A model generated the notes under the pieces. That model was not told the origin of the DNA and did no database searches. It saw nothing but the letters and a program-made list of their open reading frames with translations. 64,000 bases of DNA from Arcobacter sp. LC1 (GTDB lineage Bacteria > Campylobacterota > Campylobacteria > Campylobacterales > Arcobacteraceae): NCBI GenBank assembly GCA_021378565.1, contig JAACJU010000001.1, forward strand, positions 351,458 to 415,457. The letters run 5' to 3'. Positions 5,725 through 60,381 of the stretch are shown in pieces; position 1 is the stretch's first letter; every line of letters starts with the position of its first letter. The position numbers and the translations under genes were made by a program.

Positions 5725-6942
5725 TTATTTATTAAGCTCTTTAAAGACTTCAAGTTCATCTAATTTTTCCCAAGGATAAGAATCTTTTCCGACTTGACCT
5801 TGCGCAGCAACGTCAGCATAAAGAAAAGTACCTACTTTTGGTTGGTCTAAATTAAATTTTCTTGTAATCCAATTTGGAGTTAAGGAAAAATTTTCCATAA
5901 CAAATTCTGATAGTATATCATCATTTAGATTAGTTACACAAGTTCCGCAAGTATCAACTGAAACTGAAGTAGGTTTTGCAACTCCAATAGCATAAGAAAT
6001 CTGCACTATTGCTTTTTTCGCTAATTTTGCTGCTACTATATGTTTTGCGATATATCTAGCAACATATAAACCACTTCTATCAACTTTAGTATAATCTTTT
6101 GAAGATTGTGCTCCTCCACCTATTGGAGCATAACCACCGAAACTATCGACTATTAGTTTTCGCCCAGTTAAGCCACTATCGTGCAAACTTGAGTGAGAAA
6201 CATATTTTCCTGTTGGATTTATATGAATTATGCAATCATCAATATTAAAAACTGATTCAGGCAAACCTGCTTTTGAAATTAAGTCTTTAATCAAAGCTCT
6301 AAGCTCTTTTATATCCATGCTCTCAACACAAGGAGCTGATACTACTATTGTATGGATTTTTTGAGGTTTGCAGTTTTCAAAATTTGCTTTTGTAATATAA
6401 TCCATAGTAACTTGAGTTTTAATATCAACCCCTAGTTTATCAGGATTTGCTAAAGCAAAATTATAAACTTCATCACAAAGCATTCTAGCAAAAACGATAG
6501 CACTTGGCATATAAGTTCTTGTTTCACTTGTTGCGTAACCAAACATTATACCTTGATCACCAGCTCCAGTTTCACCGCTATCTCTATCAACACCTTGACT
6601 AATATCAGGTGATTGATGGTTTAATAAAACTTGCACTTCTACATCATCAGGATGCAAACACTGCGTTTTACTAAAATATGGGTTTCCGTTATAACCTATC
6701 TTAGCAAGTGCGCCTAGCACTAAATTTTTATAATCTTGAGTTGTTATTTTTGAATGAGTTGTAACCTCTCCGCCAATAATAACGTTTTTTCCAGCCACAA
6801 AAACTTCTGAGGCTACTCTTGATAGTGGATCATCTTGTAAAAGCTTATCAACTATGCTATCAGCTATAATGTCAGCACATTTGTCAGGATGACCAGGACT
6901 TACTACTTCACTTGTAAATAAATATTGTTGTTGTTTTTTCAT
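5725..6942 (-). CDS. metK: S-adenosylmethionine synthetase MetK
   Basis: With the ATG at 6942 the protein has 405 residues and begins MKKQQQYLFTSEVVSPGHPD, the canonical MetK N terminus. Family motifs are GHPDKCADIIAD, GAGDQGIMFGYA and GGGAQSSKDYTKVDRSG. It makes SAM from methionine and ATP. The frame stays open for another 46 codons upstream (to 7080). That extension is rich in repeated MENK units encoded by tandem ATGGAAAACAAA repeats and matches nothing known at the front of MetK, so I treat it as leader. Several in-frame ATGs in the leader make the true start worth checking. Confidence 0.93.
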   Translation of the reverse strand: MKKQQQYLFTSEVVSPGHPDKCADIIADSIVDKLLQDDPLSRVASEVFVAGKNVIIGGEVTTHSKITTQDYKNLVLGALAKIGYNGNPYFSKTQCLHPDDVEVQVLLNHQSPDISQGVDRDSGETGAGDQGIMFGYATSETRTYMPSAIVFARMLCDEVYNFALANPDKLGVDIKTQVTMDYITKANFENCKPQKIHTIVVSAPCVESMDIKELRALIKDLISKAGLPESVFNIDDCIIHINPTGKYVSHSSLHDSGLTGRKLIVDSFGGYAPIGGGAQSSKDYTKVDRSGLYVARYIAKHIVAAKLAKKAIVQISYAIGVAKPTSVSVDTCGTCVTNLNDDILSEFVMENFSLTPNWITRKFNLDQPKVGTFLYADVAAQGQVGKDSYPWEKLDELEVFKELNK

Positions 6943-17707: not shown

Positions 17708-18094
17708 ATGAAAAAAAGAGAAACACTAAATTTTGATATGACTCCCTTGATTGATGTAGTTTTTATACTGCTGATTTTTTTTATGGTAACTTCGACTTTC
17801 AAAAGCCAAAACACAGCTCTTAGCTTAGAATTGCCAAAAGCAAGTGCAAGTAGTAAGGCAGTTAAGAAAGAAGATATTACAATAGAGCTAAGCACTTATG
17901 CACTTGCTTTTAAGGGCAAAATTATTACTCTTAAAATGCTTGATAAATACTTATCACAAATAAATGATAAAGAAAAAACAATCACTCTAAAAATTGACAA
18001 AAAAGTAGAATATGCAAAAGTAATACAAATACTTAATATCTTACAAAAATACAATCTAAATAATCTTGCCCTTATCACAAAAAAGCAAAATTAA
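17708..18094 (+). CDS. exbD: ExbD/TolR-family biopolymer transport protein
   Basis: The 128-residue protein has a short cytosolic N terminus, one membrane segment (about 14-33) holding the conserved protonatable Asp16 (TPLIDVVFILLIFFMVTSTF), and a periplasmic domain ending in an ALITKK-type tail. It partners ExbB directly upstream. The unit ends in a bidirectional terminator at 18213-18238. Confidence 0.88.
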   Translation: MKKRETLNFDMTPLIDVVFILLIFFMVTSTFKSQNTALSLELPKASASSKAVKKEDITIELSTYALAFKGKIITLKMLDKYLSQINDKEKTITLKIDKKVEYAKVIQILNILQKYNLNNLALITKKQN

Positions 18095-18212
18095 GTCATA
18101 GGCTATTTTTATAGCTTGGCTTAGGCTAGAATGAAATAAATTTGTAAGCTTGGATTTTATTTGTATTTTTTATAATGTAAAATTTAGTTTAGTATATATT
18201 TTGGAGTTTTAA

Positions 18213-18238
18213 ACAAGGCAAGAGAAAACTTGCCTTGT
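18213..18238. terminator. Bidirectional terminator between exbD and the lipoprotein gene
   Basis: A perfect 10-bp stem ACAAGGCAAG / CTTGCCTTGT with a 6-base loop lies between two convergent genes. On the minus strand it is followed by TTTAAAAC, and on the plus strand by CTTGTTTAT. It is one of the few GC-containing stems in the region. Confidence 0.75.
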
Positions 18239-18278
18239 CTTGTTTATAAGTATTTATATTGTTTATTTTAAATTTCAG

Positions 18279-19986
18279 CTAGGGACAAATGATTTTATTT
18301 CCTTTACCATCTGGATTAGGTGCAGTTTTGTAGTTATTAAAGTTATATGATTTTCCATCAAACTCAATTGTACCAAAACCACCGCTTACTATTTTACTTA
18401 TATCGCCTTTGATGGCACAAGAACTAGACGAACTAGAATCTATTGTAATAGTTCCTCCCGTGTTATCAAATTTTGAGCTTTGACCGTCCAAGTACACCCC
18501 AACAGCATTCTTAGAATTTTTTATTAAAAGATTTCCTGTATTTATAAATTTTCCATTGCCTTGCACTTCTGCCAATCTTGCATCCTGACTCGAACCACCA
18601 TTTAAGGTATCTATAGTGATGTCTGCTGTATTTTTAACAGTAGAATCACTTACTTGTATTGCTCCAACATAACCACTTGGCTTATCATTGGGATCTTCTT
18701 TAGCACTAGAGTTCTTTATCAAAATAGTTCCATTATTTACGATCGAAGTTCCTGCATTATTTTTATCAGTTTCTATTGCAAAAATATTACCTGTTATATT
18801 GGAGTTTTCTATCGTTAATTTTCCGCTATTTATAAGTGTTGAGTTGCCCTCAAGGTTTAATAAGCTAATATGGCTTTGGTCGTTAGAACCGTTCAATTGA
18901 TACGTAACATTTTTAACAGTAATATCTCCTTGATTAATTATCCCAGAATTATCACTTGCATGTAAAACTTCAAGTTCTTTGTCTAAAGTTTGCCCTGCTA
19001 CGCCCTCGATTGTAATATCTTTATTATTTGTTAAAGTAGAATAATCTGTTGCATACATAAATTTATAAGGTACTTGATAGGTGTTTGAAAAATCACCTTT
19101 TACATTACTCATTTTAAAAGTACCATTATTTACTAAAGCACTATGATTAAATGCAGTCATTGCGATATGCATTCCACTAAAACCATCAAATTTGCTGCCA
19201 TCACTTTTGAAAAAAGTTTCTGTTTTGTCACTTTTATAATTGTTAAGAGTGATAGTACCTGTGTTTATAGCGTGCGAATTAAGACTTGCAAGCATACTAG
19301 AATCAAATTGAGCGGTATCAGAAATACTACCTTTGTTTGTAATAGTTGAGCCATTATGTGCATACATAGCAGCAGGCCATGGTTTTAGCATATCCTTACC
19401 TCTATTTGCTATAGTAAGATTAGCATCTTTAGACAATTTTGAAGATAGGCTTATAGTTCCACCTACTTCATTTGTAGCATTAGAAGTACCATCTGCAATC
19501 ATACCTACCAAACATGGTTTATTATCTGTATTTTTTGGTACAAAATCTTTTCCAGTAAGATTTATAGTGCCGTAGTTAAAAGAATTTGATTTACCAGAAA
19601 TATCAATAGCTTTAAATATCTTACTTGGCAAACTTGCATTAAGGCTTAAAGGCTGTAAAGAATCAGCTTGTATGGAATTTAAAGAATTTTTTGGTTGTAA
19701 AGAATCTAAAATAGGTATTTTGGGAGCACTATCATCTTGACTTATGATACCTTCATTTTTTATTGTAGCACCATTTTTACCTTGTATCATAGTTCCTAAA
19801 CTTGCTTTTGCAGTTCCATTGAAAGTATAAGACGTACCGTCAATTTTATGGTTTACAGCTTGGTTCGAGCCAGTATCGCCCCCCCCCGCAAGCGCTTAGG
19901 GTAATTAGCACAATGCTAAGTCCAAACATTTTTGAAATGCTTGATATATTTGTCATATTTGACAGACTTGAAAATTTTATAGACAT
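18279..19986 (-). CDS. Phase-variable beta-helix surface lipoprotein, OFF in this sequence (G9 frameshift)
   Basis: From ATG 19986 (AAGGAG site upstream) the reading frame encodes a lipoprotein signal ending in LITLSAC (Cys33), then runs into nine Gs and stops after 46 codons. With eight Gs (or eleven) the frame would read CGGGDTGSNQAVNHK and join the long frame to 18279, about 568 residues. The long part is built of beta-helix-like turns with Asn-Xaa-Gly repeats (INTGTITL, INQGDITV, INSGKLTI, VNNGTILI, INTGNLLI), as in filamentous-haemagglutinin or autotransporter passengers. It has no C-terminal barrel. A DG(T/K)SY(T/N)FN motif occurs at both ends. The intact part contains an internal ATG at 19790. 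Function: probably surface adhesion or immune variation, inferred. Confidence 0.8.
19879..19887 (-). repeat. G9 homopolymer (contingency tract)
   Basis: Nine consecutive Cs on the plus strand (Gs in the coding sense) fall right after the lipobox Cys codon of the lipoprotein gene. It is the only such long G/C tract I saw in this AT-rich window. Loss of one G restores the frame. Slipped-strand mispairing at poly-G tracts is the established phase-variation mechanism in Campylobacter. Confidence 0.9.
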
Positions 19987-20229
19987 TTTTTCTCCTTGAA
20001 TTTTTTTAACTTTTGATAATATAAAAATATATCTTAAAATTACATTAAATTATTTATTTTATTTTTATAATTTTTTGAAAAAAATATCATCATTAAAGAA
20101 TTTTTGAAAATTTTGTGATTTTTTGAGTGATTGTTTTTAGGATTTTCTAAATACTAAAAAAGACAAAACTAGAAATAATCTACCTTTATCTTTTTAAGTT
20201 TTTTGTGTGTTTATTTTGTTTATTCTTGG

Positions 20230-21300
20230 CTAGTTCTTATTTATGCAAGAAAGTGCAGAAAAAGCCATTTCAAGTCTTTTCATCATTGAAGTTTGTCCAG
20301 CTCTTAACCATTTTCTAGGGTCATAATAAGCTTTATTTGGTTTTTCTTCACCCTCAGGATTTCCGATTTGTGCTTGAAGGTAAGCTTTATTTTCAAGTTC
20401 ATAAGCTCTCACACCATCCCAAAAAGCCCACTGAGTATCTGTATCAATATTCATCTTAACAACACCATAAGATACAGCTTCTTTAATCTCTTCAAGTTTT
20501 GAACCTGAACCACCGTGAAAAACAAAATTAACTATTTTTCCACTTTGAGACAATTTTTTAGCTATATATTTTTGAGAGTTATCTAAGATTTTTGGAGATA
20601 AAACCACATTTCCAGGTTTATAAACTCCATGAACATTTCCAAATGACGCTGCGATTGTAAAATTTGGACTGATTTTATTTAAAATCTCATAAGCATAAAA
20701 TACATCTTCAGGCTGAGAATATAGAAGTGAATTATCAATACTTGTATTATCAACCCCATCTTCTTCTCCACCAGTGATACCTAATTCAATCTCAAGCATC
20801 ATGTCTAGTTTTACCATTTTAGCGAAATATTCTTTAGAAGTTTTAAGATTGTCTAGAAGACTATCTTCGCTAAAATCTAACATATGAGAAGTAAACAAAG
20901 GTCTTTTATGCACTTTAAAGTATTCTTCACCAGCTTCAAGTAAGCCATCTATCCAAGGAAGTAATTTTCTAGCAGCATGGTCAGTATGTAAAATAACAGC
21001 TACACCATAAGCCTTTGCTAATGCATGAACATATTTAGCCCCTGCTATTGCGCCTAAAATAGCTGATTTTTTAGAATCTTTTAAGCCTTTTCCAGCAAAA
21101 AAACTAGCTCCACCATTTGAAAATTGAATAATTACAGGAGAATTAAGTTTTGCAGCGATTTCAAGCACAGCATTTGCTGAGTCAGTTCCTACTACATTTA
21201 CAGCAGGCAAGGCAAAGCCCTGCTCTTTTGCAAGATTAAAAACTTCTCTTGCTTCGTCTGCGTTTAAAACGCCTGTTTTAACTAAATCTAAAACACCCAT
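20230..21300 (-). CDS. fba: Class II fructose-bisphosphate aldolase
   Basis: The 356-residue protein is a zinc-dependent class II aldolase. It has the HTDHAARKLLPW metal and active-site segment, LEIELGITGGEEDG, FTIAASFGNVHGVY, NFVFHGGSGS and VKMNIDTDTQWAFWDG. It interconverts fructose-1,6-bisphosphate with DHAP and glyceraldehyde-3-phosphate; in Campylobacter, which lacks phosphofructokinase, this serves gluconeogenesis. It follows the peb4-like gene by 12 bp, the same order as C. jejuni peb4-fba. Confidence 0.95.
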   Translation of the reverse strand: MGVLDLVKTGVLNADEAREVFNLAKEQGFALPAVNVVGTDSANAVLEIAAKLNSPVIIQFSNGGASFFAGKGLKDSKKSAILGAIAGAKYVHALAKAYGVAVILHTDHAARKLLPWIDGLLEAGEEYFKVHKRPLFTSHMLDFSEDSLLDNLKTSKEYFAKMVKLDMMLEIELGITGGEEDGVDNTSIDNSLLYSQPEDVFYAYEILNKISPNFTIAASFGNVHGVYKPGNVVLSPKILDNSQKYIAKKLSQSGKIVNFVFHGGSGSKLEEIKEAVSYGVVKMNIDTDTQWAFWDGVRAYELENKAYLQAQIGNPEGEEKPNKAYYDPRKWLRAGQTSMMKRLEMAFSALSCINKN

Positions 21301-48534: not shown

Positions 48535-48576
48535 TGACTTGTCGTAAGGACAAAAAAAATCTCAAGGAGCTTGACT

Positions 48577-49482
48577 ATGGTTAAAAAGATATTACTGGCA
48601 CTTATGTTTGTTTCTTGCTTTGCTTTTGCAAAACAAATTACAATTGATGTAGTAACTCACGGAACTGACACAGATCCTTTTTGGAACGTTGTTAAAAATG
48701 GAATTAATAACGCAAAAAAAGATATGGGTGTCAAGGTAGTTTATAGAAATCCTTCAACAGGATCTTTAACACAGATGGCTAGGCTGATTCATTCAGCAGT
48801 GGCAAGAAGACCTGATGGTTTAGTTGTTTCTGTTCCTGATGCTGATGCTCTTGGCCCAGAAATCAAAAGAGCAATAGCACTTGGAATTCCTGTAATTACC
48901 ATCAATGCGGGAGAAAAATTTTCTAAAAAAGTTGGTGCTTTGATGCATGTTGGACAATCTGAGTATCATGCAGGTTATCTAGCTGGTTTAAGAGCTAAAA
49001 AAGCTGGAGTAAAAAACTTTATGTGTGTAAATCATGAAATTACAAACTCAGCAGTAGAAGCAAGATGTAGAGGTTTTGCTAAAGCTTTAGGTGTTAAAAA
49101 CAATATGTTAGATGTTGGAAAAGATCCTACTAACATTACACAAAAAGTTGAACCTAGATTAAAAGGTTTAGATGCCGTTTTAGTTGTAGGCGAAATTGCA
49201 GCAGGTCCAACAGCTAGAGCTATTGCAAAAGCTGGATTAAAAAAACACATCTATTTTGTTACTTTTGATTTAAGTAAAAAAATCCTAAGCCTTATCAAAA
49301 AAGGTGTAATTGACTTTGCAATTGATCAACAACCTTACTTACAAGGCTATATGCCAATAGTTGTATTAACACAATATATTAAATACGGAGTTTTACCAAG
49401 TGGAAATATAAATTCAGGTCCTGGATTTATAACAAAAGCAAATGTAAATTTAGTAGAAAAATATGCAGGTAAATACAGATAA
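48577..49482 (+). CDS. Sugar (probably inositol) ABC transporter periplasmic binding protein
   Basis: The ATG at 48577 lies seven bases after AAGGAG; a TTG two codons earlier is too close to it. The protein of about 301 residues has a signal peptide (VKKILLALMFVSCFAFA). The mature part belongs to the ribose/galactose/inositol type I periplasmic-binding family: THGTDTDPFWNVVKNGI, SVPDADALGPEIKRAIALGIPVITINAG, HVGQSEYHAGYLAG, DLSKKILSLIKKGVIDFAIDQQPYLQGY. First gene of the plus-strand inositol operon, so inositol or an isomer is the likely ligand. A hairpin follows it. Confidence 0.88.
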   Translation: MVKKILLALMFVSCFAFAKQITIDVVTHGTDTDPFWNVVKNGINNAKKDMGVKVVYRNPSTGSLTQMARLIHSAVARRPDGLVVSVPDADALGPEIKRAIALGIPVITINAGEKFSKKVGALMHVGQSEYHAGYLAGLRAKKAGVKNFMCVNHEITNSAVEARCRGFAKALGVKNNMLDVGKDPTNITQKVEPRLKGLDAVLVVGEIAAGPTARAIAKAGLKKHIYFVTFDLSKKILSLIKKGVIDFAIDQQPYLQGYMPIVVLTQYIKYGVLPSGNINSGPGFITKANVNLVEKYAGKYR

Positions 49483-49500
49483 TTAGTTAAATTTTAACGT

Positions 49501-49526
49501 AAACTAGGATTTTTATCCTAGTTTTT
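49501..49526 (+). terminator. Intercistronic hairpin after the binding-protein gene
   Basis: The 10-bp stem AAACTAGGAT/ATCCTAGTTT with a TTTT loop is followed by TT. It lies 19 bases after the stop and before the permease ribosome binding site. Such partial terminators or stabilising hairpins raise binding-protein output relative to the membrane genes. Confidence 0.7.
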
Positions 49527-49544
49527 AAAAAAAAGGAAAATAAA

Positions 49545-50624
49545 GTGGCAGATGAACGACTCTCAAAAGAAAAATTTCATTTAAAAATATTAAAAAAACC
49601 AGAATCAACTTCAGTTATTTCAGTAATTATTGTATTTTTAGTATTTGCATTTTTAGCTAATCCCGCTATGTTTAATCTAGAGGGAATATTGTCTTGGACA
49701 GAATCTTCAGCTTTAATAGGAGTTTTAGCAGTTGGTGTATGTTTGTTAATGATAGCAGGGGAATTTGATTTATCTATTGGTTCAATGATAGGTTTTTCAG
49801 GTATGACTATAGCGATTTTAACAGTAAATTTACATTTAAGTCTTTTTTTAAGTCTTGTGATAGCATTTTTTATTGCAGGTTGCTTTGGATTTTTAAATGG
49901 TTATTTAGTGGTAAAAACTAGGCTACCCTCTTTTATAGTAACTCTTGCAGGTTTATTTATTTTGCGAGGTTTAACTATAGCAATTTCTAGAATGATTACA
50001 GGGCAAACCTTGATTGATGGAGTTAAAGAAGCTACAAGTTCTAGCTTTTTATCTTCTATGTTTGGAGGCTATGCTTTTAAAGGATTTTTTTCATATCTTA
50101 GTAAGCAAGGCTTTATACAGGCTCTGCCCAATGGCACGCCTTCTGTAATTGGTGTGAAAATGATAATAATTTGGTGGATATTACTAACAATAATAGGAAT
50201 TTTTGTTTTAAGAAATACAAAATATGGAAACTGGATTTATGCAACAGGTGGAGATGAAGAATCTGCTAAAAATATGGGAGTACCGACTGATAAAGTAAAA
50301 ATTATGCTTTTTATAGTGACTAGTTTATGTGCTTGTTTATTTGCTGCTTGTCAAGTGTTAGATTATGGTTCAGCAGATGCGCAAAGAGGTTTGTTAAAAG
50401 AATTTGAAGCTATTATTGCTGTTGTTATGGGTGGAACTTTATTAACAGGAGGCTATGGCACGGTAATTGGAGCAAGTATTGGAGCTTTGATTTTTGGTAC
50501 AGTTAATATAGGAATTTCTTATACCTCCATAAGTAGTGATTGGTTTAGGGTGTTCTTAGGCTTGATGCTTTTATTTGCCGTAGTTTTAAGTAATAGCATA
50601 AGAAAAAAAGCCATGAGTTCTTAG
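49545..50624 (+). CDS. Sugar ABC transporter permease (FrcC/RbsC family)
   Basis: The 359-residue protein starts with GTG eight bases after AAGGAAA. It has about nine or ten membrane segments and RbsC-family motifs: LLMIAGEFDLSIGSMIGFSGM, NGYLVVKTRLPSFIVTLAG, GNWIYATGGDEESAKNMGV and FEAIIAVVMGGTLLTGGYGTVIG. It moves the sugar delivered by the upstream binding protein. Length and layout fit the Frc-type importer (one permease, one single-domain ATPase). Confidence 0.9.
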   Translation: MADERLSKEKFHLKILKKPESTSVISVIIVFLVFAFLANPAMFNLEGILSWTESSALIGVLAVGVCLLMIAGEFDLSIGSMIGFSGMTIAILTVNLHLSLFLSLVIAFFIAGCFGFLNGYLVVKTRLPSFIVTLAGLFILRGLTIAISRMITGQTLIDGVKEATSSSFLSSMFGGYAFKGFFSYLSKQGFIQALPNGTPSVIGVKMIIIWWILLTIIGIFVLRNTKYGNWIYATGGDEESAKNMGVPTDKVKIMLFIVTSLCACLFAACQVLDYGSADAQRGLLKEFEAIIAVVMGGTLLTGGYGTVIGASIGALIFGTVNIGISYTSISSDWFRVFLGLMLLFAVVLSNSIRKKAMSS

Positions 50625-50630
50625 GGAGAT

Positions 50631-51428
50631 ATGATGAAACATCCTTTATTAAAAATAAAAAATATAAAAAAGCACTTCGGAAATGTTATAGCCCTTCATG
50701 ATATAAGTATGGACTTGCATGCTGGAGAAGTTATGTGCCTTTTAGGTGACAATGGAGCTGGAAAATCAACTCTTATAAAAACACTTGCAGGAGTACACAA
50801 AAAAACGTCTGGGGTTTATGAAATTGATAATAAAAGTGTAAAAAATGTAAGTCCTCAAAAACTTCTTGACAAAGGGATTGCTACAGTTTATCAAGATTTA
50901 TCAACTATACCTTTAATGTCAATATCAAGAAATTTCTTTTTAGGTAGAGAAAAAGAAATTGAAAAAAGAGTTGCTTTTATAAAAGTGCTTGATTTTAAAA
51001 AAGCAGATAAAATAGCTTATGATTGTATGCACGAAATTGGAATAAATATAAGGCAAGCTTCTCAGCCTGTAGGAACTTTAAGTGGAGGTGAGAGGCAGTG
51101 TTTAGCTATTGCAAAAGCTGTGCATTTTGGAGCAAAAGTTTTGATACTTGATGAGCCAACTTCAGCCTTAGGAGTTGCTCAATCATCTATGGTATTAAAA
51201 TATATTTTACAAGCCAAAAACAAGGGTTTAGGAGTAATTTTTATAACCCATAATGTTTATCACGCTTTTGCAGTTGGAAACAGATTTACTGTTTTAAACA
51301 GAGGTAAAACTGTAGGAACATTTAAAAAAGAAGATACCTCCATTCAAGATTTACAAGAAAAAATGGCAGGTGGTAAAACAATACAAGATTTAAGTAAGGA
51401 ATTAGGTCAAGATTGTGAAAATTTATAG
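50631..51428 (+). CDS. Sugar ABC transporter ATPase, single-domain (FrcA-like)
   Basis: The 265-residue protein (264 if the second ATG at 50634, better spaced from GGGAG, is used) has Walker [11 protein letters not shown]-loop in VYQDLST, signature LSGGERQC, Walker [13 protein letters not shown] and H-loop IFITHNVYH. Unlike RbsA, MglA or IatA, which have two fused domains, it has only one, as in the rhizobial Frc fructose importer. It powers the importer with the two genes upstream. Confidence 0.9.
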
Positions 51429-51447
51429 ATAAGTCTCAGGAGAAAAA

Positions 51448-53325
51448 ATGAAAACAATAAGATTAAGCATGGCGGAAGCCTTGGTAAAGTACTTAAATGC
51501 ACAATACATTGATAATAATGGCGAAATTTCTAAACTAATTCCTGCCGTTTTTGGTATATTTGGACATGGCAATGTAACGTGTCTAGCTTCTGCTTTATAT
51601 GATTGTAAAGAAGAAATGCCAACTTATAGGGGGCAAAATGAACAAGCTATGGCCTTAGCTGCTCTTGGTTTTACGAGGGCAAAAAATAAAAAACAATTTT
51701 TAGCAGTTACAAGCTCAATAGGCCCTGGTTCAACAAATATAATAACAGCAGCTGGAGTTGCGTTTACAAACTCTTTGCCCATGCTTATTTTATCTGGAGA
51801 TTATTTTGACTCGAGACTTAGCCATCCTGTGCTTCAACAAGTTGAGCAAGAAATTGATGCTACAAGCTCAGCAAGTGATTGTTTTAAGCCTTTAGTTAAA
51901 TATTGGGATAGAATTACAAACCCAGCGCAAATAATCGCAAGCTTACCAAGAGCTATTGAAGTTATGCTAAATCCAAAAACCTCAGGACCTGTTTATTTAG
52001 GACTATGTCAAGATACACAGGCAGAAAGTTTTGATTATCCTTGTAGATTTTTTGAAAAGAAAATTCATAAAATTCCAAGACCAAGAGCATGCTTGGAACA
52101 AATAAAAGAAGCAGCAGAACTTATAAAATCATCTAAAAAAATAGTTATGCTTGTAGGTGCTGGACTTGTTTATTCTGAAGCTAGAAATGAATTAATCAAA
52201 TTTTCTAAACAGTGCAATATAATGTATGGAACTACAGTTTGTGCAAAATCAGCATTTTTTGAAAGTGATGATTTATACATGGGACCTATTGGAGTATCTG
52301 GCTCAAAATCTATAAATTCTTTAGTCAAACAAGCTGATTTAATCATAGCTATTGGTACAAGATTGCAAGATTTTAGCACAGCTTCATGGAGCTTATTTTC
52401 ACAAAATGAAAACTTAAAATTTATAAGTATAAATACTTCAAGTTTGGACGCAAGCAAGCATTTAAGTTTGATGATTAATAGTGATGCAAAAGAAGGTTTA
52501 AAAGATTTAAGCTTAGCTTGTAAAGGTTTCAAAGCAAACCAAAGTTTTGTAAATCTTGGTTTAAAAAATAAAAAAGAATATTCAAAATATATAGAAAAAA
52601 GAATCAATGAAAAAGATGGAAAAAATGGGCTCCTAAATTATGCAAATGTTGTAGGCACTTTAAATGAATTTGCCTCAAAAGATGACAAAATCATATCAGC
52701 TTCTGGAGGTTTACCAGGTGAATTAAATACACTTTGGAGAAATAAAGCTTATAATAGCATAGATATTGAGTACGGTTATTCTTGCATGGGTTATGAAGTA
52801 AGTGCAGCTTACGGAGCGGCTCTAGCAAAAGACTCTAAAAATGGCAAAAGCAAAGGTGATGTTTTTTCTCTTTGTGGTGATGGCTCTTATATGATGCTAA
52901 ATTCTGAAATTTATTCTTCAGTTTTAACAGGGCATAAAATGATTGTTTTGCTTTGTGATAACGGAGGCTTTGGGGTGATTAATCGCTTGCAAGTAGCTCA
53001 GGGTGGAGAAGAATTTAATAATCTTATTAAAGATTGTAAACATGTAAATAAACCTTTTATGATTGATTTTGCAGCTCATGCTAAAGCTGTGGGTGCAGAT
53101 TCTTCTTATGTGGAAAATTTGGATGATTTAAAAAAAGCTTTAGTAATGGCAAGAAAAAGTGAGGTATCTTATCTAATCCATATCAAAGTATCAGCGTATT
53201 CTTGGAGTGAGTATTCAGATGCTTGGTGGGAAGTAGGAGTTCCAGAAGATTCAAAAAAAACAAAAATTAAAAAAGCAAGAAAAGTCTTAGAAAAAGACAA
53301 AGAATCTCAAAGAAAAGGCGTATAA
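51448..53325 (+). CDS. iolD: 3D-(3,5/4)-trihydroxycyclohexane-1,2-dione hydrolase IolD (ThDP enzyme)
   Basis: The 625-residue ThDP-dependent protein has GIFGHGNVTCLASAL, the catalytic Glu in YRGQNEQAMALAA, SSIGPGSTNIITAA, and the ThDP/Mg site FSLCGDGSYMMLNSEI with the downstream NNGGFGVI-like CDNGGFGVINRLQ. The C terminus contains SAYSWSEYSDAWWEVGVPE, characteristic of IolD. It opens the ring to 5-deoxy-D-glucuronate. It is the key committed step and shows the cluster is for inositol. It sits 2 bases before iolE. Confidence 0.94.
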   Translation: MKTIRLSMAEALVKYLNAQYIDNNGEISKLIPAVFGIFGHGNVTCLASALYDCKEEMPTYRGQNEQAMALAALGFTRAKNKKQFLAVTSSIGPGSTNIITAAGVAFTNSLPMLILSGDYFDSRLSHPVLQQVEQEIDATSSASDCFKPLVKYWDRITNPAQIIASLPRAIEVMLNPKTSGPVYLGLCQDTQAESFDYPCRFFEKKIHKIPRPRACLEQIKEAAELIKSSKKIVMLVGAGLVYSEARNELIKFSKQCNIMYGTTVCAKSAFFESDDLYMGPIGVSGSKSINSLVKQADLIIAIGTRLQDFSTASWSLFSQNENLKFISINTSSLDASKHLSLMINSDAKEGLKDLSLACKGFKANQSFVNLGLKNKKEYSKYIEKRINEKDGKNGLLNYANVVGTLNEFASKDDKIISASGGLPGELNTLWRNKAYNSIDIEYGYSCMGYEVSAAYGAALAKDSKNGKSKGDVFSLCGDGSYMMLNSEIYSSVLTGHKMIVLLCDNGGFGVINRLQVAQGGEEFNNLIKDCKHVNKPFMIDFAAHAKAVGADSSYVENLDDLKKALVMARKSEVSYLIHIKVSAYSWSEYSDAWWEVGVPEDSKKTKIKKARKVLEKDKESQRKGV

Positions 53326-53326
53326 G

Positions 53327-54205
53327 ATGAATGTAAAATTAGCAATTGCACCAATAGCGTGGACAAATGATGACTTACCTGAGCTAGGTGGAGATACTCC
53401 TGTTGAGCTTTGCTTAAGCCAAATAGAGCAATCAGGTTTTGTAGGTACTGAACTAGGTGGAAAATTTCCACAAAAAAAAGAAAAGCTAAAAGCGATTTTA
53501 AATAAATATAATTTAGAACTAGTTGGAGGTTGGTTTTCTGGTTTACTTCTTAATTTGAGCCTAGGAGAAGAAAAAGTTAGATTAGAAGAAGAATTTATAA
53601 AAAGAAAATTTGTAGATTCTAAAGTAATAGTTTATTGCGAATGTTCAAACACAATTCAAGGTGAGATTTCTACGCCTTTAAGTAAAAAAGTTGTGCTTAG
53701 CCAAAAGGAAATGGAAGAATATGCAAAAAGATTTTCTAAACTTTCTGAATTTGCTAAGCAAAAAGGTTTTATTTTAGCTTATCACCATCACATGGGAACA
53801 ATAATCCAAAATGAAGAAGAACTTGATAGTTTTTTAAAATTTGCTTCAAAAGATGTAAAAATAACTTTTGATAGCGGACATTTATACTTTGCAGGTGCAA
53901 ATCCTCTTGAGGTCTTGAAAAAACATTATGAGCAGATTGCGCATGTGCATTTAAAAGATATAAGAGAAGATATTAAAGCAAAAGCAAAAAAAGAAGACTT
54001 AAGTTTTCTAAATTCTGTTTTAATAGGAGTTTTTACAATTCCAGGAGATGGAGCAATTAATTTTAAAGAAATAATTGACTTTTTAAAACAAAAATCTTAT
54101 TCAGGTTGGCTAGTAGTGGAAGCTGAACAAGATCCAAAATTAGCACCACCATTAGAATATGCAAAAAAAGCTTATAGCTATTTACAAACTTTGTTGAAGG
54201 ATTAA
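53327..54205 (+). CDS. iolE: Inosose dehydratase IolE
   Basis: The 292-residue sugar-phosphate-isomerase-like TIM barrel starts with the IolE hallmark IAPIAWTNDDLPELGGDTP and FVGTELGGKFPQ. Metal-site segments are LAYHHHMGTII, TFDSGHLYFAG and VHLKDIRED, with the WLVVEAEQDP ending. It dehydrates scyllo-inosose to 3D-trihydroxycyclohexanedione. Placed directly between iolD and a Gfo/Idh gene, with no gaps. Confidence 0.94.
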   Translation: MNVKLAIAPIAWTNDDLPELGGDTPVELCLSQIEQSGFVGTELGGKFPQKKEKLKAILNKYNLELVGGWFSGLLLNLSLGEEKVRLEEEFIKRKFVDSKVIVYCECSNTIQGEISTPLSKKVVLSQKEMEEYAKRFSKLSEFAKQKGFILAYHHHMGTIIQNEEELDSFLKFASKDVKITFDSGHLYFAGANPLEVLKKHYEQIAHVHLKDIREDIKAKAKKEDLSFLNSVLIGVFTIPGDGAINFKEIIDFLKQKSYSGWLVVEAEQDPKLAPPLEYAKKAYSYLQTLLKD

Positions 54206-54206
54206 T

Positions 54207-55382
54207 ATGAAAGAATTAGGAATCGGAGTTATCGGTATGGGTTGGATGGGTGAAGCACATAGTAATGCTTACAACAATGTTAGAGCTAAATTTTCACATT
54301 TAAATGTTTCTCCCAAATTAATAATTTGCTCTGAAATTTTAGAAGAAAGGGCAAAAGAAGCTAAAGAAAAATTTGGCTTTTTAGAATATTCTTGTTCTTG
54401 GAAAGATGTTGTTGATAATCCACAAGTTGATGTAGTGGATATTACAGCACCAAACTCAATGCACCTTGAAATAATAAAATATTGCATTAAAAAAAACAAA
54501 CACATAAGTTGTGAAAAACCATTAGGAGCATTTCCTGATCAAAGTATTGAAGCTTATAATTTGGTTAAAAACTATGATAAACAAACTTCAGTTGGTTACA
54601 ATTATAGATATGCGCCTTTAGTTCAATATGCAAAAGAGTTAATAGAAGATGGTTCTTTAGGAGATTTGTGGTACTTTAAAGGAAGATTTTTTGCATCTTA
54701 CGCTAGTGATGAATTAGGTTTTTATTCTTGGCGTTTTGAAAAAGAAAATGGCTACGGAGTCCTAAGCGATATCATGAGTCATGTTGTTGATATGGCTAAT
54801 TATCTTATGGGTGGAATAAAAGAAGTGAGTGCTGATATGGATACTTTTATTAAAAAAAGACCTAGTGCGCCAAAAGGAGCTAGTCACTTTGGAATTGGAA
54901 GTAAAGATGATAAAATGCTAGATGTTACTAATGATGATTTTTTAAGTTCACTTGTAAAATTTGACTCAGGAGCAAAAGGGCATCTTGATACTTCTAGAGT
55001 TTTTCAAGGTCCATCTTGTGATATGAGTTTTGAAGTTTATGGAAGCAAGGGAAGTATAAAATGGGATTTTGAAGAAATGAATACCTTGCATTTATATTTA
55101 AAAGAAGATACAAAAGATAGCAAAGCTACACTAGGATACAAAAAAATCTATTCAAATCCAAGCCATCCATATCATGCAAATTTTAATCCAGCTGATGGTA
55201 CAGGCTTAGGCTATGAAGATTTAAAAACTATCGAAACAGCAAACTTTTTAAGAAAAATTTTGAATAAAGAGCACAAGCATTTTACAGATTTTAGCGATGC
55301 TAAAAATGTTGGGCATGTTTTAAATGCCATGCTAAAATCAATAAAAAGCAAAAGTTTTGAAAAAGTAGAAGGTAAAAAATAA
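54207..55382 (+). CDS. Gfo/Idh/MocA-family oxidoreductase (probable inositol-isomer dehydrogenase)
   Basis: The 391-residue protein has the Rossmann start IGVIGMGWMGEAHSNAY, a full EKP motif (CEKPLGAF, Lys104), and the catalytic Asp/His in SDIMSHVVDMANYLMG. It also has YNYRYAPLVQYAKELIEDGSLGD, and is clearly different from IolG. In family terms it could oxidise scyllo-, D-chiro- or another inositol, or reduce a keto-inositol (IolX/IolU/IolW types). One base separates it from iolE. Confidence 0.82.
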   Translation: MKELGIGVIGMGWMGEAHSNAYNNVRAKFSHLNVSPKLIICSEILEERAKEAKEKFGFLEYSCSWKDVVDNPQVDVVDITAPNSMHLEIIKYCIKKNKHISCEKPLGAFPDQSIEAYNLVKNYDKQTSVGYNYRYAPLVQYAKELIEDGSLGDLWYFKGRFFASYASDELGFYSWRFEKENGYGVLSDIMSHVVDMANYLMGGIKEVSADMDTFIKKRPSAPKGASHFGIGSKDDKMLDVTNDDFLSSLVKFDSGAKGHLDTSRVFQGPSCDMSFEVYGSKGSIKWDFEEMNTLHLYLKEDTKDSKATLGYKKIYSNPSHPYHANFNPADGTGLGYEDLKTIETANFLRKILNKEHKHFTDFSDAKNVGHVLNAMLKSIKSKSFEKVEGKK

Positions 55383-55407
55383 AAAAATTAATGAAGAAGA
55401 AAACGAG

Positions 55408-57129
55408 ATGAAAAAAAAAGTGATGAAATTAAGAAGTCAAAGATGGTTTAAGCAAAATGATTTAAGAAGTTTTGGACACAGGTCAAGAATGAACCAATTG
55501 GGATATGACTATGAAGAATATGTTGATAAACCAATAATTGCGATTATAAATCCTTGGAATGAGCTAAACACTTGTCATGGACATTTTCCACAAATGGTTC
55601 AAGAAATAAAAAGAGGAATATTAAGCTCAGGTGCATTTCCTGTTGAAATACCAGTTTTAAGCCTAGGAGAACAACTAATAAAACCAACATCTATGATGTT
55701 TAGAAATTTATTAGCCCTTGAAGTTGAAGAAGTTCTTCGTGCTTATCCTGTTGATGGTGCTGTTTTGCTTGGAGGTTGTGACAAAACAACCCCAGGAGTT
55801 TTAATGGGCGCAATTTCTTTTAATATTCCTTTTGTTTATGTACCTGCTGGCGCTATGATTAGAGGAAATTATAAAGGCGAAGTTTTAGGCTCAGGTACTG
55901 ATGTTTGGAAATATTGGGATGAAAAACAAAAGGGAAATTTTAGTGAATGTGAGTGGCGAAAACTTGAACTAGGAATTGCACGTTCAGCTGGAACTTGTAT
56001 GAGCATGGGAACAGCAAGTACAATGATGATTTTAAGTGAAGCACTTGGACTTTGTTTGCCAGCAAGCTCTAGTATTTTAGCAGTAGATTCTGAGCATTCA
56101 AGAATGGCAAGAGCTAGTGGAGTGCAAATTGTAAAACTTGTCGAAGAAGATGTAAAACCAAGAGATATTTTAACTAAGCAATCGTTTGAAAATGCAGTCA
56201 TAACACTAAATGCGATAGGTGGCTCAACAAATGCAGTTATTCATTTAATTGCTCTTGCATTAAGAGCTAAAATTCCCCTTGATTTAGAAGATTTTGAAAG
56301 ATTGAGTAAAAATATTCCACTTATTTTAAATCTGAAACCAAGTGGAAAATATGTCATGGAAGACTTTTTTTATGCAGGTGGAACTTTGGCACTTTTCAAA
56401 GAATTAAAATCAAAACTTCATGATATAAAAACCATAAATCAAAAAAGTTTTTTCAAAAACTATGAAGATGGAGAAATATACAACGAAGATGTAATTACAA
56501 ACTTAGAAAAACCATTCAATACCCTTCCTTCTTTAGCAATTTTAAAAGGAAACTTAGCTCCTGATGGTGCAGTCATCAAACAAAGCGCTTGTTCTAAGCA
56601 TTTATTTAAGCACAAAGGAAAAGCTCTTGTCTTTGATGATATTGAAATTTTAAAAGCTACAATTGATGATGAAAATCTTGATGTTGATGAAAATTCAGTT
56701 TTAGTTTTAAAAAATGCTGGCCCTGTTGGGGCTCCTGGTATGCCTGAGTGGGGGAATTTGCCCTTGCCTAAAAAGCTATTAAAAAAAGGTGTAAAAGATA
56801 TGCTTAGAATTTCTGATGCTAGAATGAGTGGGACTTGTTACGGCTCTTCTATTTTACATGTCGCACCAGAATCATACATTGGTGGAAATCTAGCTTTAGT
56901 TGAAACTGGGGATATAATACATTTTGATCTTGAAAAAAGATTAATTGAAGTTTTATTAAGTGGCGAAGAATTAGAAAAAAGAAGAAAAGCTTACAAGCCA
57001 AAACCACGAGATTATGCAAGTGGCTACACTAAACTTTTTACATCAAGTGTAGGACAAGCAAACAAAGGTTGCGATTTTGACTTTTTAAGTGATGGCGATA
57101 GAGCAAACAAAGAACCAAGAATTTTTTAA
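55408..57129 (+). CDS. IlvD/Edd-family sugar-acid dehydratase (pentonate-dehydratase type)
   Basis: The 573-residue protein has the three cluster cysteines of the sugar-acid dehydratases, Cys56 (NTCHGHF), Cys124 (GGCDKTTPG) and Cys197 (GTCMSMGTAST), at positions close to those of L-arabinonate dehydratase. Other motifs are GSTNAVIHLIA, LVLKNAGPVGAPGMPEWG and ISDARMSGTCYGSSILHVAPES. These enzymes turn 2,3-dihydroxy acids into 2-keto-3-deoxy acids. In this operon I infer 5-deoxyglucarate as substrate, giving 4-hydroxy-2-oxoadipate. It lies inside the iol operon, 11 bases before iolG. Ordinary pentonate dehydratase activity is the alternative. Confidence 0.87.
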   Translation: MKKKVMKLRSQRWFKQNDLRSFGHRSRMNQLGYDYEEYVDKPIIAIINPWNELNTCHGHFPQMVQEIKRGILSSGAFPVEIPVLSLGEQLIKPTSMMFRNLLALEVEEVLRAYPVDGAVLLGGCDKTTPGVLMGAISFNIPFVYVPAGAMIRGNYKGEVLGSGTDVWKYWDEKQKGNFSECEWRKLELGIARSAGTCMSMGTASTMMILSEALGLCLPASSSILAVDSEHSRMARASGVQIVKLVEEDVKPRDILTKQSFENAVITLNAIGGSTNAVIHLIALALRAKIPLDLEDFERLSKNIPLILNLKPSGKYVMEDFFYAGGTLALFKELKSKLHDIKTINQKSFFKNYEDGEIYNEDVITNLEKPFNTLPSLAILKGNLAPDGAVIKQSACSKHLFKHKGKALVFDDIEILKATIDDENLDVDENSVLVLKNAGPVGAPGMPEWGNLPLPKKLLKKGVKDMLRISDARMSGTCYGSSILHVAPESYIGGNLALVETGDIIHFDLEKRLIEVLLSGEELEKRRKAYKPKPRDYASGYTKLFTSSVGQANKGCDFDFLSDGDRANKEPRIF

Positions 57130-57140
57130 AGGATAAGAAA

Positions 57141-58148
57141 ATGATAAATATTGGAATACTCGGAGCTGGGCGTATAGGTAAAGTCCATGTTAAAAGTTTA
57201 AAACAAATTTCAGGAGTATATATAAAAAGTATAGCTGACCCTTATTTAGATGAGGCTTGGGCAAAAACGCAAAATATTAAAAACTGTTATAAAAGTACTG
57301 ATGATATTTTAAATGATGATGAAATAGATGCTGTATATATTTGTACACCAACTGATACGCATGCTGATTTGATTATCCAAGCGGCAAGAAAAAATAAAGC
57401 TATTTTTTGTGAAAAACCTGTGGATATAAACTTAAATAGAATTTTAGAAGTCTCTAAAGTTTTAAAGGAAACTAAAGTATTATGCCATCTTGGATTTAAC
57501 AGAAGATTTGATACTAGCTTTTCAAAATTGGCTAAAGAAGTTGAAGACAAAACTTTAGGAGATATCATAAGCATAAAAATTATTTCAAGAGATTGTGCGG
57601 CTCCGCCTAAGGAATATGTAAAAACTTCAGGTGGTATGTTTTTGGATATGACTATTCATGATTTTGATATGCTAAGATTTATCTCCAAAAAAGAAGTTAA
57701 AGAAGTTTTTGTTAAAGGAGGCTCTTTTGTAAGCTCATATGGAGATATTGATATTGATACTGCTATGATTCATCTTGAACTTGAAGATAAAAGCTTAGCT
57801 TTGATAGAAAATTGCAGAGCTACTACTTTTGGGTATGATCAAAGAATAGAAGTATTTGGTACAAAAGCACAAGGAAAATGCGAAAATATTTTAGAAAATT
57901 CGTTTGAACTTACAAATGATAATGGAAACACACAAGCTAAAGCGCTTGACTTTTTTCTTGAACGTTATGAACAAGCATATTTTAAAGAAAGTCAAGCTTT
58001 TGTTGAAAATATTTTAGATAAAAGAAAAAACTTAGGTGCAAAAATAAATGATTGCTTAGAAGCTACTTTTATAGCTTTGGCTTGTAAAAAGTCTCTTGAG
58101 GAAAAAAGAGCAGTTACTATAGATGAAATTAAAAGGACTATAAAATGA
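57141..58148 (+). CDS. iolG: myo-Inositol 2-dehydrogenase IolG
   Basis: The 335-residue Gfo/Idh/MocA protein has a Rossmann start (IGILGAGRIGKVH), catalytic Lys92 in CEKPVDIN, and Asp169/His173 in FLDMTIHDFDMLRF. The GFNRRFDTSF, RDCAAPPKEYV and TTFGYDQRIEVFGTKA segments match myo-inositol dehydrogenases. It oxidises myo-inositol to scyllo-inosose with NAD. Its stop overlaps the aldehyde dehydrogenase start by four bases. First pathway step, although encoded late in the operon. Confidence 0.93.
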   Translation: MINIGILGAGRIGKVHVKSLKQISGVYIKSIADPYLDEAWAKTQNIKNCYKSTDDILNDDEIDAVYICTPTDTHADLIIQAARKNKAIFCEKPVDINLNRILEVSKVLKETKVLCHLGFNRRFDTSFSKLAKEVEDKTLGDIISIKIISRDCAAPPKEYVKTSGGMFLDMTIHDFDMLRFISKKEVKEVFVKGGSFVSSYGDIDIDTAMIHLELEDKSLALIENCRATTFGYDQRIEVFGTKAQGKCENILENSFELTNDNGNTQAKALDFFLERYEQAYFKESQAFVENILDKRKNLGAKINDCLEATFIALACKKSLEEKRAVTIDEIKRTIK

Positions 58149-59590
58149 AAATGTATAAAGATTATGGATTATACTTAGGAAACAAATGGGAAAAAGGCGA
58201 AGATGGAACTTTTGAAGTGATTAATCCTTGTGATGAAAGTGTTATAGGCTTAGCTCCAAATGCTTCAAAAGCACAAATTACAAAAGCTATTGATTTAGCT
58301 CAAGATTGTGCTAAAACTTGGGGTGCACTTGATGCTTGGCAAAGATGTGAAAAACTTCAAAATGTAGCTACAAATATGAAAAATTCTTTAGAAGATATTG
58401 CTCAGGCTATAAGCCTTGAATCAGGTAAACCACTCGCTCAAGCAAAAAGAGAAGTTCAACTTAGCCTTGAGCAATTCACTTGGTTTGGAGAACAAACAAA
58501 AAGAATAAAAGGACAAATCCTAGAAAGTAGAATTAAAAATACTAAAGTTTATGTAGAATATGAGCCAATAGGAACAGTCGGTGCTTTTTCTTCATGGAAT
58601 TTTCCTGTTTTACTACTGGCTAGAAAAATAGCTCCAGCTCTAGCAGCAAAATGCCCTATTATCATTCGTTCAAGTAAAGAATGTGTTTTAAGTGCTATGA
58701 AATTAATCCAAGCTTGTCATGATGCAGGTTTACCTAAAGGGCTTGTTTCTTTGCTTTGTGGGGACGCAAATACTATTTCAACTATTATTGCAGATGATGA
58801 AAGAGTAAAAAAATTATCTCTTACAGGTTCTAGCTTTGTTGGAAGTGAACTTATAAAACAAAGTGCAAAAACATTTAAAAAAGTAACTATGGAATTAGGC
58901 GGACATGCGCCTGTACTTATTTTTCCTGATGTAAAAAATCTTCAAGAATTAGCAAAAACTTGTTGCTCTGTAAAATTTGCAAATTCTGGTCAAGTTTGCG
59001 TTTCACCTACTAGATTTTATGTTCACAAAGATATTATTGATGAATTTTGTAAATACTTTATAGAAGAAGCAAAAAAAATCAAAATAGGTTCTGGGCTTGA
59101 TGAAAGCACAACTATGGGTCCTTTGATAAACAAAAAAAGACTTGTTGCGATAAAAGAATTCATTACTGAAGTAAAAAATACTAAAGGCGATATTTTACTT
59201 GGAGGTAAAGAAGCAGCAGGTTTTAGTAAAGGATATTATTTTGAACCTACGATTATAAGAGATTTAGAAGATTGCTCAAAACTTTTATGTGATGAAATTT
59301 TTGGACCAATTGCACTTATTCAAACTTTTAGCACTTTTGATGAAGTTATCAAAAAAGCAAACTCAACAGCTTATGGCTTGGCATCTTACGCTTTTACTTC
59401 ATCACTTGAACTTGCAAATAAATGCCAAAGTGAAATATCATCTGGAATGGTGGGGATTAATAGCTTTGCACTAGCTGCTGCTGAGATTCCTTTTGGAGGA
59501 ATAAAAGCTAGTGGATTTGGTAGAGAAAGTGGAGAACTTGGTATGACTGAGTATTTAAACACAAAAATTATAACCATGCAAACTTCTTAA
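58145..59590 (+). CDS. NAD(P)-dependent aldehyde dehydrogenase (semialdehyde-dehydrogenase type)
   Basis: The 481-residue protein has full aldehyde dehydrogenase features: PIGTVGAFSSWNFPVLLLARKIAPAL, LTGSSFVGSELI, base Glu250 (TMELGGHAP), nucleophile Cys285 (NSGQVCVSPTRF) and EIFGPIALI. The NAD-site 'KPSE' motif reads RSSKE, a variation. It resembles succinate- and alpha-ketoglutarate-semialdehyde dehydrogenases. Here I infer oxidation of the aldehyde of 5-deoxyglucuronate to 5-deoxyglucarate, in place of IolB isomerisation. Coupled to iolG by ATGA overlap and to the aldolase by an 8-base gap. Confidence 0.87.
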   Translation: MKMYKDYGLYLGNKWEKGEDGTFEVINPCDESVIGLAPNASKAQITKAIDLAQDCAKTWGALDAWQRCEKLQNVATNMKNSLEDIAQAISLESGKPLAQAKREVQLSLEQFTWFGEQTKRIKGQILESRIKNTKVYVEYEPIGTVGAFSSWNFPVLLLARKIAPALAAKCPIIIRSSKECVLSAMKLIQACHDAGLPKGLVSLLCGDANTISTIIADDERVKKLSLTGSSFVGSELIKQSAKTFKKVTMELGGHAPVLIFPDVKNLQELAKTCCSVKFANSGQVCVSPTRFYVHKDIIDEFCKYFIEEAKKIKIGSGLDESTTMGPLINKKRLVAIKEFITEVKNTKGDILLGGKEAAGFSKGYYFEPTIIRDLEDCSKLLCDEIFGPIALIQTFSTFDEVIKKANSTAYGLASYAFTSSLELANKCQSEISSGMVGINSFALAAAEIPFGGIKASGFGRESGELGMTEYLNTKIITMQTS

Positions 59591-59598
59591 GGATTAAC

Positions 59599-60381
59599 AT
59601 GAAAAATATTAGTTTATGTAAAAAATGGGCTAAAAATCAAGGCACGATAAACGCTTGGCTTAGCATGCCCTGCGCTTTTAGTGCTGAACTTATCGGAAAA
59701 GCTGGATTTGATAGCATTACAATAGATATACAGCACGGCTTGATATCTTATGAAAACGCCTTAAATATGTTTCAAGCTATGAGTTCTTCAAAAAGTGAAC
59801 TTATGGCTAGAGTACCTTGGTTAAATCCTAGTGATATAATGAAAGTTTTAGATGCAGGTGCAAGAGGTATAATTTGCCCTATGGTTAATACCAAAGAAGA
59901 TGCACAAAAATTAGTATCTTATTCTTATTATCCTCCACTTGGCACTAGAAGTTTTGGGCCTACTAGAGCTAAGTATTTTTTGAATGATTATGCAAAAGAC
60001 GCAAATTCTAGTTTGCTTATTATTGCTATGATTGAAACTGCAGAGGCATTAGAAAACTTAGAAGATATTTTAAGTGTTGAAGGGATTGATGGTATTTACA
60101 TAGGTCCTGCAGATTTATCTTTAAATCTTGGCAAAGAACCAGCTTTTGACAAAGAAGATGAATTTATTTTAAAAACTATAAAGCATATTTTAAAAGAAGC
60201 AAAAAAGCACAATAAATTTGCAGGAATTCATAACGCTACTGTAGAATATGGACAAAAAATGCTTAAACTTGGTTTTGATTTTATTTCAGTATCTTCAGAT
60301 GCAAACTTCATAATTCAAGGAGCAAATGCCGTTATCTCAAAATTTAACGATAAAGAAGCCACTAAATCAAAAACATACTGA
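59599..60381 (+). CDS. HpcH/HpaI-family 4-hydroxy-2-oxo-acid aldolase
   Basis: This 260-residue class II pyruvate aldolase has all catalytic positions of HpaI: His46 (TIDIQHGL), Arg71 (MARVPW), metal ligands Glu146 (AMIETAEALENL) and Asp172 (GIYIGPADLSLNLG). It also has YYPPLGTRSFGPTRA. HpaI cleaves 4-hydroxy-2-oxoheptanedioate to pyruvate and succinate semialdehyde. The one-carbon-shorter 4-hydroxy-2-oxoadipate would give pyruvate and malonate semialdehyde, the MmsA substrate. It is the last gene of the inositol operon and replaces the missing IolJ in my reading. Confidence 0.89.
   Translation: MKNISLCKKWAKNQGTINAWLSMPCAFSAELIGKAGFDSITIDIQHGLISYENALNMFQAMSSSKSELMARVPWLNPSDIMKVLDAGARGIICPMVNTKEDAQKLVSYSYYPPLGTRSFGPTRAKYFLNDYAKDANSSLLIIAMIETAEALENLEDILSVEGIDGIYIGPADLSLNLGKEPAFDKEDEFILKTIKHILKEAKKHNKFAGIHNATVEYGQKMLKLGFDFISVSSDANFIIQGANAVISKFNDKEATKSKTY

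Follow-up and report, generated by a model that had tools for sequence, protein, structure and literature searches.

The minus-strand gene at positions 18,279–19,986 of the window (the complete 64-kb stretch of DNA analysed) is very probably a phase-variable gene for an outer-membrane beta-helix lipoprotein; it belongs to a small group of paralogues confined to its lineage, and it is OFF in this assembly. The mechanism is a known one; the protein family is new, the lineage is unusual, and the placement of the tract at the lipobox is recurrent. Slippage, surface exposure and an adhesive role are what we infer for the gene from one genome of its genus.

Translation starts at an ATG at 19986, preceded by an AAGGAG ribosome-binding site, and proceeds through an N-terminal signal that ends in the lipobox SIVLITLSAC. 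This sequence satisfies a rule modelled on PROSITE PS51257, and its cysteine (Cys33, 19888-19890) is the residue expected of a lipoprotein processed by Lgt and Lsp. The nine Gs that follow are read in the signal frame as Gly-Gly-Gly and put the body out of frame; the signal-frame translation is MSIKFSSLSNMTNISSISKMFGLSIVLITLSAC-GGG-RYWLEPSCKP-stop, 46 residues in all. The body lies in the adjacent frame, which is open from the tract to a stop at 18279-18281, and ends in two cysteines that are conserved in the paralogue alignment (SSCAI ... IICP). The arrangement is that of a contingency locus: a coding G tract of at least 8 bases, longer than chance would give, whose length decides whether the 46-residue signal frame is joined to an intact body. 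The first-pass annotation had correctly placed the tract and the LSAC lipoprotein signal, which lie on the minus strand. It was also right that G9 ends the signal frame early and that an intact body follows in the neighbouring frame, but the stop is codon 47 rather than 46, and the body has 532 codons rather than 503. Its arithmetic on the 196 bases separating two ATGs holds; the downstream ATG at 19790 is, however, no second start, being an internal methionine of the body that is aligned in the paralogues (column TGT-M-IL).

Table 1. Features of the lipoprotein locus, in window coordinates.
Feature	Position	Strand	Basis
Lipoprotein signal peptide, lipobox LSA-C, 33 codons	19888..19986	-	Translation, PS51257-like rule
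G9 tract, directly 3' of the lipobox Cys codon	19879..19887	-	Run-length outlier
TAA stop, codon 47, closing the signal frame (OFF state, as assembled)	19846..19848	-	Translation
Lipoprotein body, 532-codon open frame, predicted beta-helix	18279..19878	-	Translation, alignment, structure model
Islet of 2.1 kb separating fba (20230-21300) from exbD (17708-18094)	18095..20229		Synteny comparison
10-pair stem-loop, terminator-like, between the lipoprotein gene and convergent exbD	18213..18238		Suggestive; stem-loop number not above shuffles

The G9 tract and the long frame behind it are not products of chance. Runs of G or C in the window number 57 at length 4 and 5 at length 5, with none of 6-8 and a single one of 9; G8 is matched at 2 overlapping positions, against 0.10 per window in dinucleotide shuffles. 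GGG is the least used glycine codon in the window (11%), and three in succession would be expected at ~0.1% by usage. Among 2000 first-order Markov sequences matched to the body in length and composition, the longest open frame was 136 codons, compared with 532 in the body. The other two frames of the body region hold 45 and 76 stops, and the GC content by codon position (38/41/19%) is as expected for a coding frame.

An AlphaFold model of the body, computed from a five-sequence alignment, is all-beta, and its short strands are regular from end to end (mean pLDDT 78, pTM 0.83), in keeping with the beta-helix proposed in the first-pass annotation. The best fold matches of the model are the HK620 phage tailspike, antigen 43 and pertactin, at TM scores of at most 0.42 and ~10% identity, and no PDB structure matched at E<=0.001. 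From the strand pattern and these best, though weak, matches, we would say that the body is a parallel beta-helix. It would share its fold class with the right-handed beta-helix proteins named above and differ from them in sequence, with no common catalytic motif established. The fold matches also raised a phage tailspike origin, which was rejected, there being no sequence relatives and a lipoprotein signal on every copy. A C-terminal translocator beta-barrel is absent; the body carries no Pfam family, and its end is the conserved two-cysteine C-terminus. On the fold alone, the surface role is probably that of an adhesin or a glycan-binding antigen.

Relatives of the body are found within the same genome: L037 (1394 codons), L038 (614) and L039 (440), at 34-40% identity. 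Two of these, L037 and L039, repeat the layout of the window gene, with a signal, AC-G(S/G)SS, a G tract (G13 and G10, respectively) and a stop-free body in another frame; all tract lengths given here come from one assembly of one genome of the genus. In L037, the largest paralogue (G000 C12:106.7-110.9 kb), the whole body occurs twice in tandem with a long Pro/Thr/Ala linker between the copies. L038 has the same lipobox, which satisfies the PS51257-like rule, followed by a glycine stretch in mixed codons (GGC GGA GGT) and a single continuous 614-codon ORF. Being continuous and free of a tract, L038 shows in nature what a joined product would look like, and it is the expected non-switching control. 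A fourth tract-bearing lipoprotein gene, L046, places an unrelated 203-codon body out of frame behind LNACGPT and a G9 tract. Three of the five lipoboxes (L037, L039 and L046; LNAC or FNAC, with N at -2) fail the strict PS51257-like rule. Across the genome, the layout pattern GCTTGY GG … G7 gave 15 overlapping matches against 0 in the control; in 398 other genomes its matches were scattered, and two of them (L130, L142) resemble the starts of secreted proteins by eye. The argument for phase variation made in the first-pass annotation, an out-of-frame G9 ahead of an intact body, is thus borne out, the layout being repeated in two paralogues and in one unrelated lipoprotein gene.

Outside this genome, no relative was found within the order (398 other genomes), either with the body protein or with a five-row profile built from the family. 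None emerged from viral contigs, nor from 84,980 species genomes that were scanned with the own genome excluded, and the profile matched no sequence in the whole PDB. Pfam and NCBIfam scans assigned the bodies to no real family: a beta-lactamase model matched at E=0.04, by chance; TonB models matched the proline-rich linker of L037, again by chance; and Hyphal_reg_CWP (E=3e-5) fell under its cut-off and matched the repeats.

The lipoprotein gene is the only gene on its islet. In six relatives (L051, L052, L053, L055, L057 and L063), convergent exbD-exbB comes ~20-85 bp after fba, and this junction holds nothing similar to the islet, which argues that the lipoprotein gene is an addition to a conserved neighbourhood. 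Around the islet, no mobile-element ends were recognised, only short A/T-rich repeats. An origin in Campylobacter is ruled out by the adjoining fba, whose nearest proteins come from Aliarcobacter/Arcobacter at 73%; the lineage stands isolated within the Arcobacteraceae, this being the one genome of its genus in the set. Elsewhere in the window (48571-60381), a run of genes resembles a system for myo-inositol uptake and breakdown, with a sugar ABC transporter and IolD-, IolE-, IolG- and aldehyde-dehydrogenase-like products; to our knowledge, such genes are unusual for Arcobacteraceae.

Taken together, a model for switching can be proposed. The GGG run behind the lipobox cysteine would have two roles, that of the usual glycine tether and that of the slippage site. 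Replication slippage would add or remove a G; of every three tract lengths, one would join the signal to the 532-codon body (ON), and the rest would stop early (OFF). The signal peptide and the lipidation site would be identical in both states. That anchoring and expression switch together, as had been suggested earlier, does not hold: the tract begins only after the codon of the lipobox cysteine, which is translated whatever the phase, so that the body is switched and lipidation is not. Even in the OFF state, a short peptide carrying the lipid could be produced. Since several genes would switch independently and one would not switch at all, the cells of a clone would differ in the combination of beta-helix proteins that they carry on the surface. 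In a wider reading, which we offer tentatively and rate at a little under an even chance, these genes would represent a ‘lipobox switch’ module, in which slippery GGG codons have come to encode the tether after the lipid-carrying cysteine in several lipoprotein genes, one of them unrelated to the rest, giving this member of the Arcobacteraceae a combinatorial, independently switching set of lipid-anchored beta-helix surface proteins with no homologues elsewhere.

Given that homopolymer lengths are error-prone and that the assembly is a 26-contig draft in which a search did not find the 16S rRNA gene, the tract could have been miscounted, and the gene could be an ordinary, always-expressed lipoprotein gene. 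We consider such a sequencing or assembly error improbable. The genome holds 13 tracts of G9-G13, no G8 and, in the window, no runs of 6-8, a distribution that single-base misreads cannot yield. The four lipobox tracts are each independently out of frame, which makes a one-off error unlikely as the whole story, and Illumina is reported to read poly-G of Campylobacter-typical length accurately (PhasomeIt, PMC6321876). A long G tract would, moreover, stay a slippage site even with its count wrong.

That all four lipobox-tract genes (the window gene, L037, L039 and L046) are OFF in the assembly needs no special explanation, because the chance of this under neutrality is ~0.2 and not significant; it also resembles what a shared fixed defect would produce. 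The same pattern would be accounted for by transcriptional slippage or ribosomal frameshifting, which would give every cell a constant small output of full-length protein and no heritable switching. RNA polymerase can slip on homopolymers, but such a mechanism is better documented on A/T runs, and the paralogue tracts differ in length (9, 10 and 13), as drift at the DNA level predicts; we regard this explanation as decidedly improbable. The least probable of the alternatives, to our minds, is a pseudogene, in which a frameshift killed the lipoprotein gene and decay has set in. The window gene is indeed OFF in the one genome of the genus, and for C. jejuni and C. coli a decay of the capC and capD autotransporter genes that is associated with lineage has been reported (PMC7168839). 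Against decay stand the body itself, with 532 stop-free codons and coding-type GC (38/41/19%), the likewise intact paralogue bodies of 1394 and 440 codons, and the position of the lesion, which falls every time exactly within the glycine-coding tract. Phase variation by replication slippage is therefore the reading that we retain.

We also surveyed G tracts across the genome and the family. The genome, 99.8% complete at 1.86 Mb in 26 contigs, carries tracts of at least 8 Gs at 13 places, all of them G9-G13, and no G8. G9 is absent from 59 of 104 Arcobacteraceae genomes, and at least 10 G9 matches occur in only 5 of the 103 other genomes of the family, compared with 25 in this one. Those rich in G9 (G031, G037, G038, G040 and G050) have 15-34 overlapping matches and most relatives none; three of the five belong to one small-genome genus (1.3-1.5 Mb). 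Tract richness in Arcobacteraceae thus has more than one origin or has been widely lost. For A. butzleri RM4018, the absence of G:C tracts was described as ‘a major distinguishing characteristic’, and differences in mismatch repair were suggested as its cause (PMC2147049). A search of this genome for MutL domains gave none, and its one MutS (731 aa) appears MutS2-like, with an Smr-like C-terminus as read from its sequence. DnaQ-type exonuclease genes (RNase_T) number 2, versus 3-5 in most relatives. Miller et al. proposed that such exonucleases account for the absence of tracts; tract-rich G031 and G050, however, have 4 or 5 RNase_T genes, so that the RNase_T count alone does not explain the tracts.

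Other tracts of the genome (G000) lie upstream of or within further genes. On the coding strand, G9 and G10 tracts (L042 1909-1917, contig C10; L045 2311-2320, C14) stand 95-100 bp upstream of genes for large secreted proteins with similar starts (602 and >862 aa, no Pfam family) and are candidates for transcriptional phase variation. On contig C12, 34-35 bp separate each of two further tracts (L044 1792-1800, G9, and 5836-5845, G10) from the start codon that follows; the genes downstream encode, respectively, a secreted protein of 202 aa and a membrane protein of 170 aa that was judged by eye to be DUF805-like. These tracts are candidates for the promoter or leader type. Coding tracts were seen in a sugar epimerase gene, in frame (L041 1856-1868), and out of frame in genes for an MBOAT-type acyltransferase (L043 1837-1845) and a PAP2-type phosphatase (L040 1603-1612), the family names being assigned by eye. 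The last three tracts suggest that surface-glycan genes are also switchable.

Campylobacter and Helicobacter are established examples of translational phase variation by poly-G tracts (PMC6321876; H. canadensis, PMC2823697), and 9G makes up 53% of the poly-G tracts of Campylobacter (PhasomeIt, PMC6321876). The present tracts are like those loci in lying within reading frames, in having lengths of 9-13 with G9 commonest, in occurring in a low-GC Campylobacterales genome, and in affecting surface and glycan genes; they differ in their host, a member of the Arcobacteraceae, and in standing repeatedly right behind the lipobox cysteine. In Campylobacter, the poly-G tract of capD lies in the coding sequence and that of capC upstream of it (PMC7168839). 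With the CapC and CapD autotransporters and CapA, the proteins described here share large size, a probable beta-helical form, a presumed surface location and poly-G, but they are lipoproteins with no C-terminal beta-barrel, no Pfam domain and no detectable sequence relative outside their own genome. In the open-access literature, we found neither a set of lipoprotein genes with the glycine tether behind the lipobox as slippage site nor a phase-variable gene set in Arcobacteraceae, although this is weak evidence.

These genes add lineage-specific, putatively phase-variable surface lipoproteins to a family whose best-known genome is reportedly without contingency G tracts. Since MutL was not detected, the one MutS is MutS2-like and genes for DnaQ-type exonucleases are few, the genome also allows the proposed connection of tracts with mismatch repair to be tested. 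Finally, the use of the glycine tether as a slippage site would amount to a simple design rule by which other lipoproteins can be screened.
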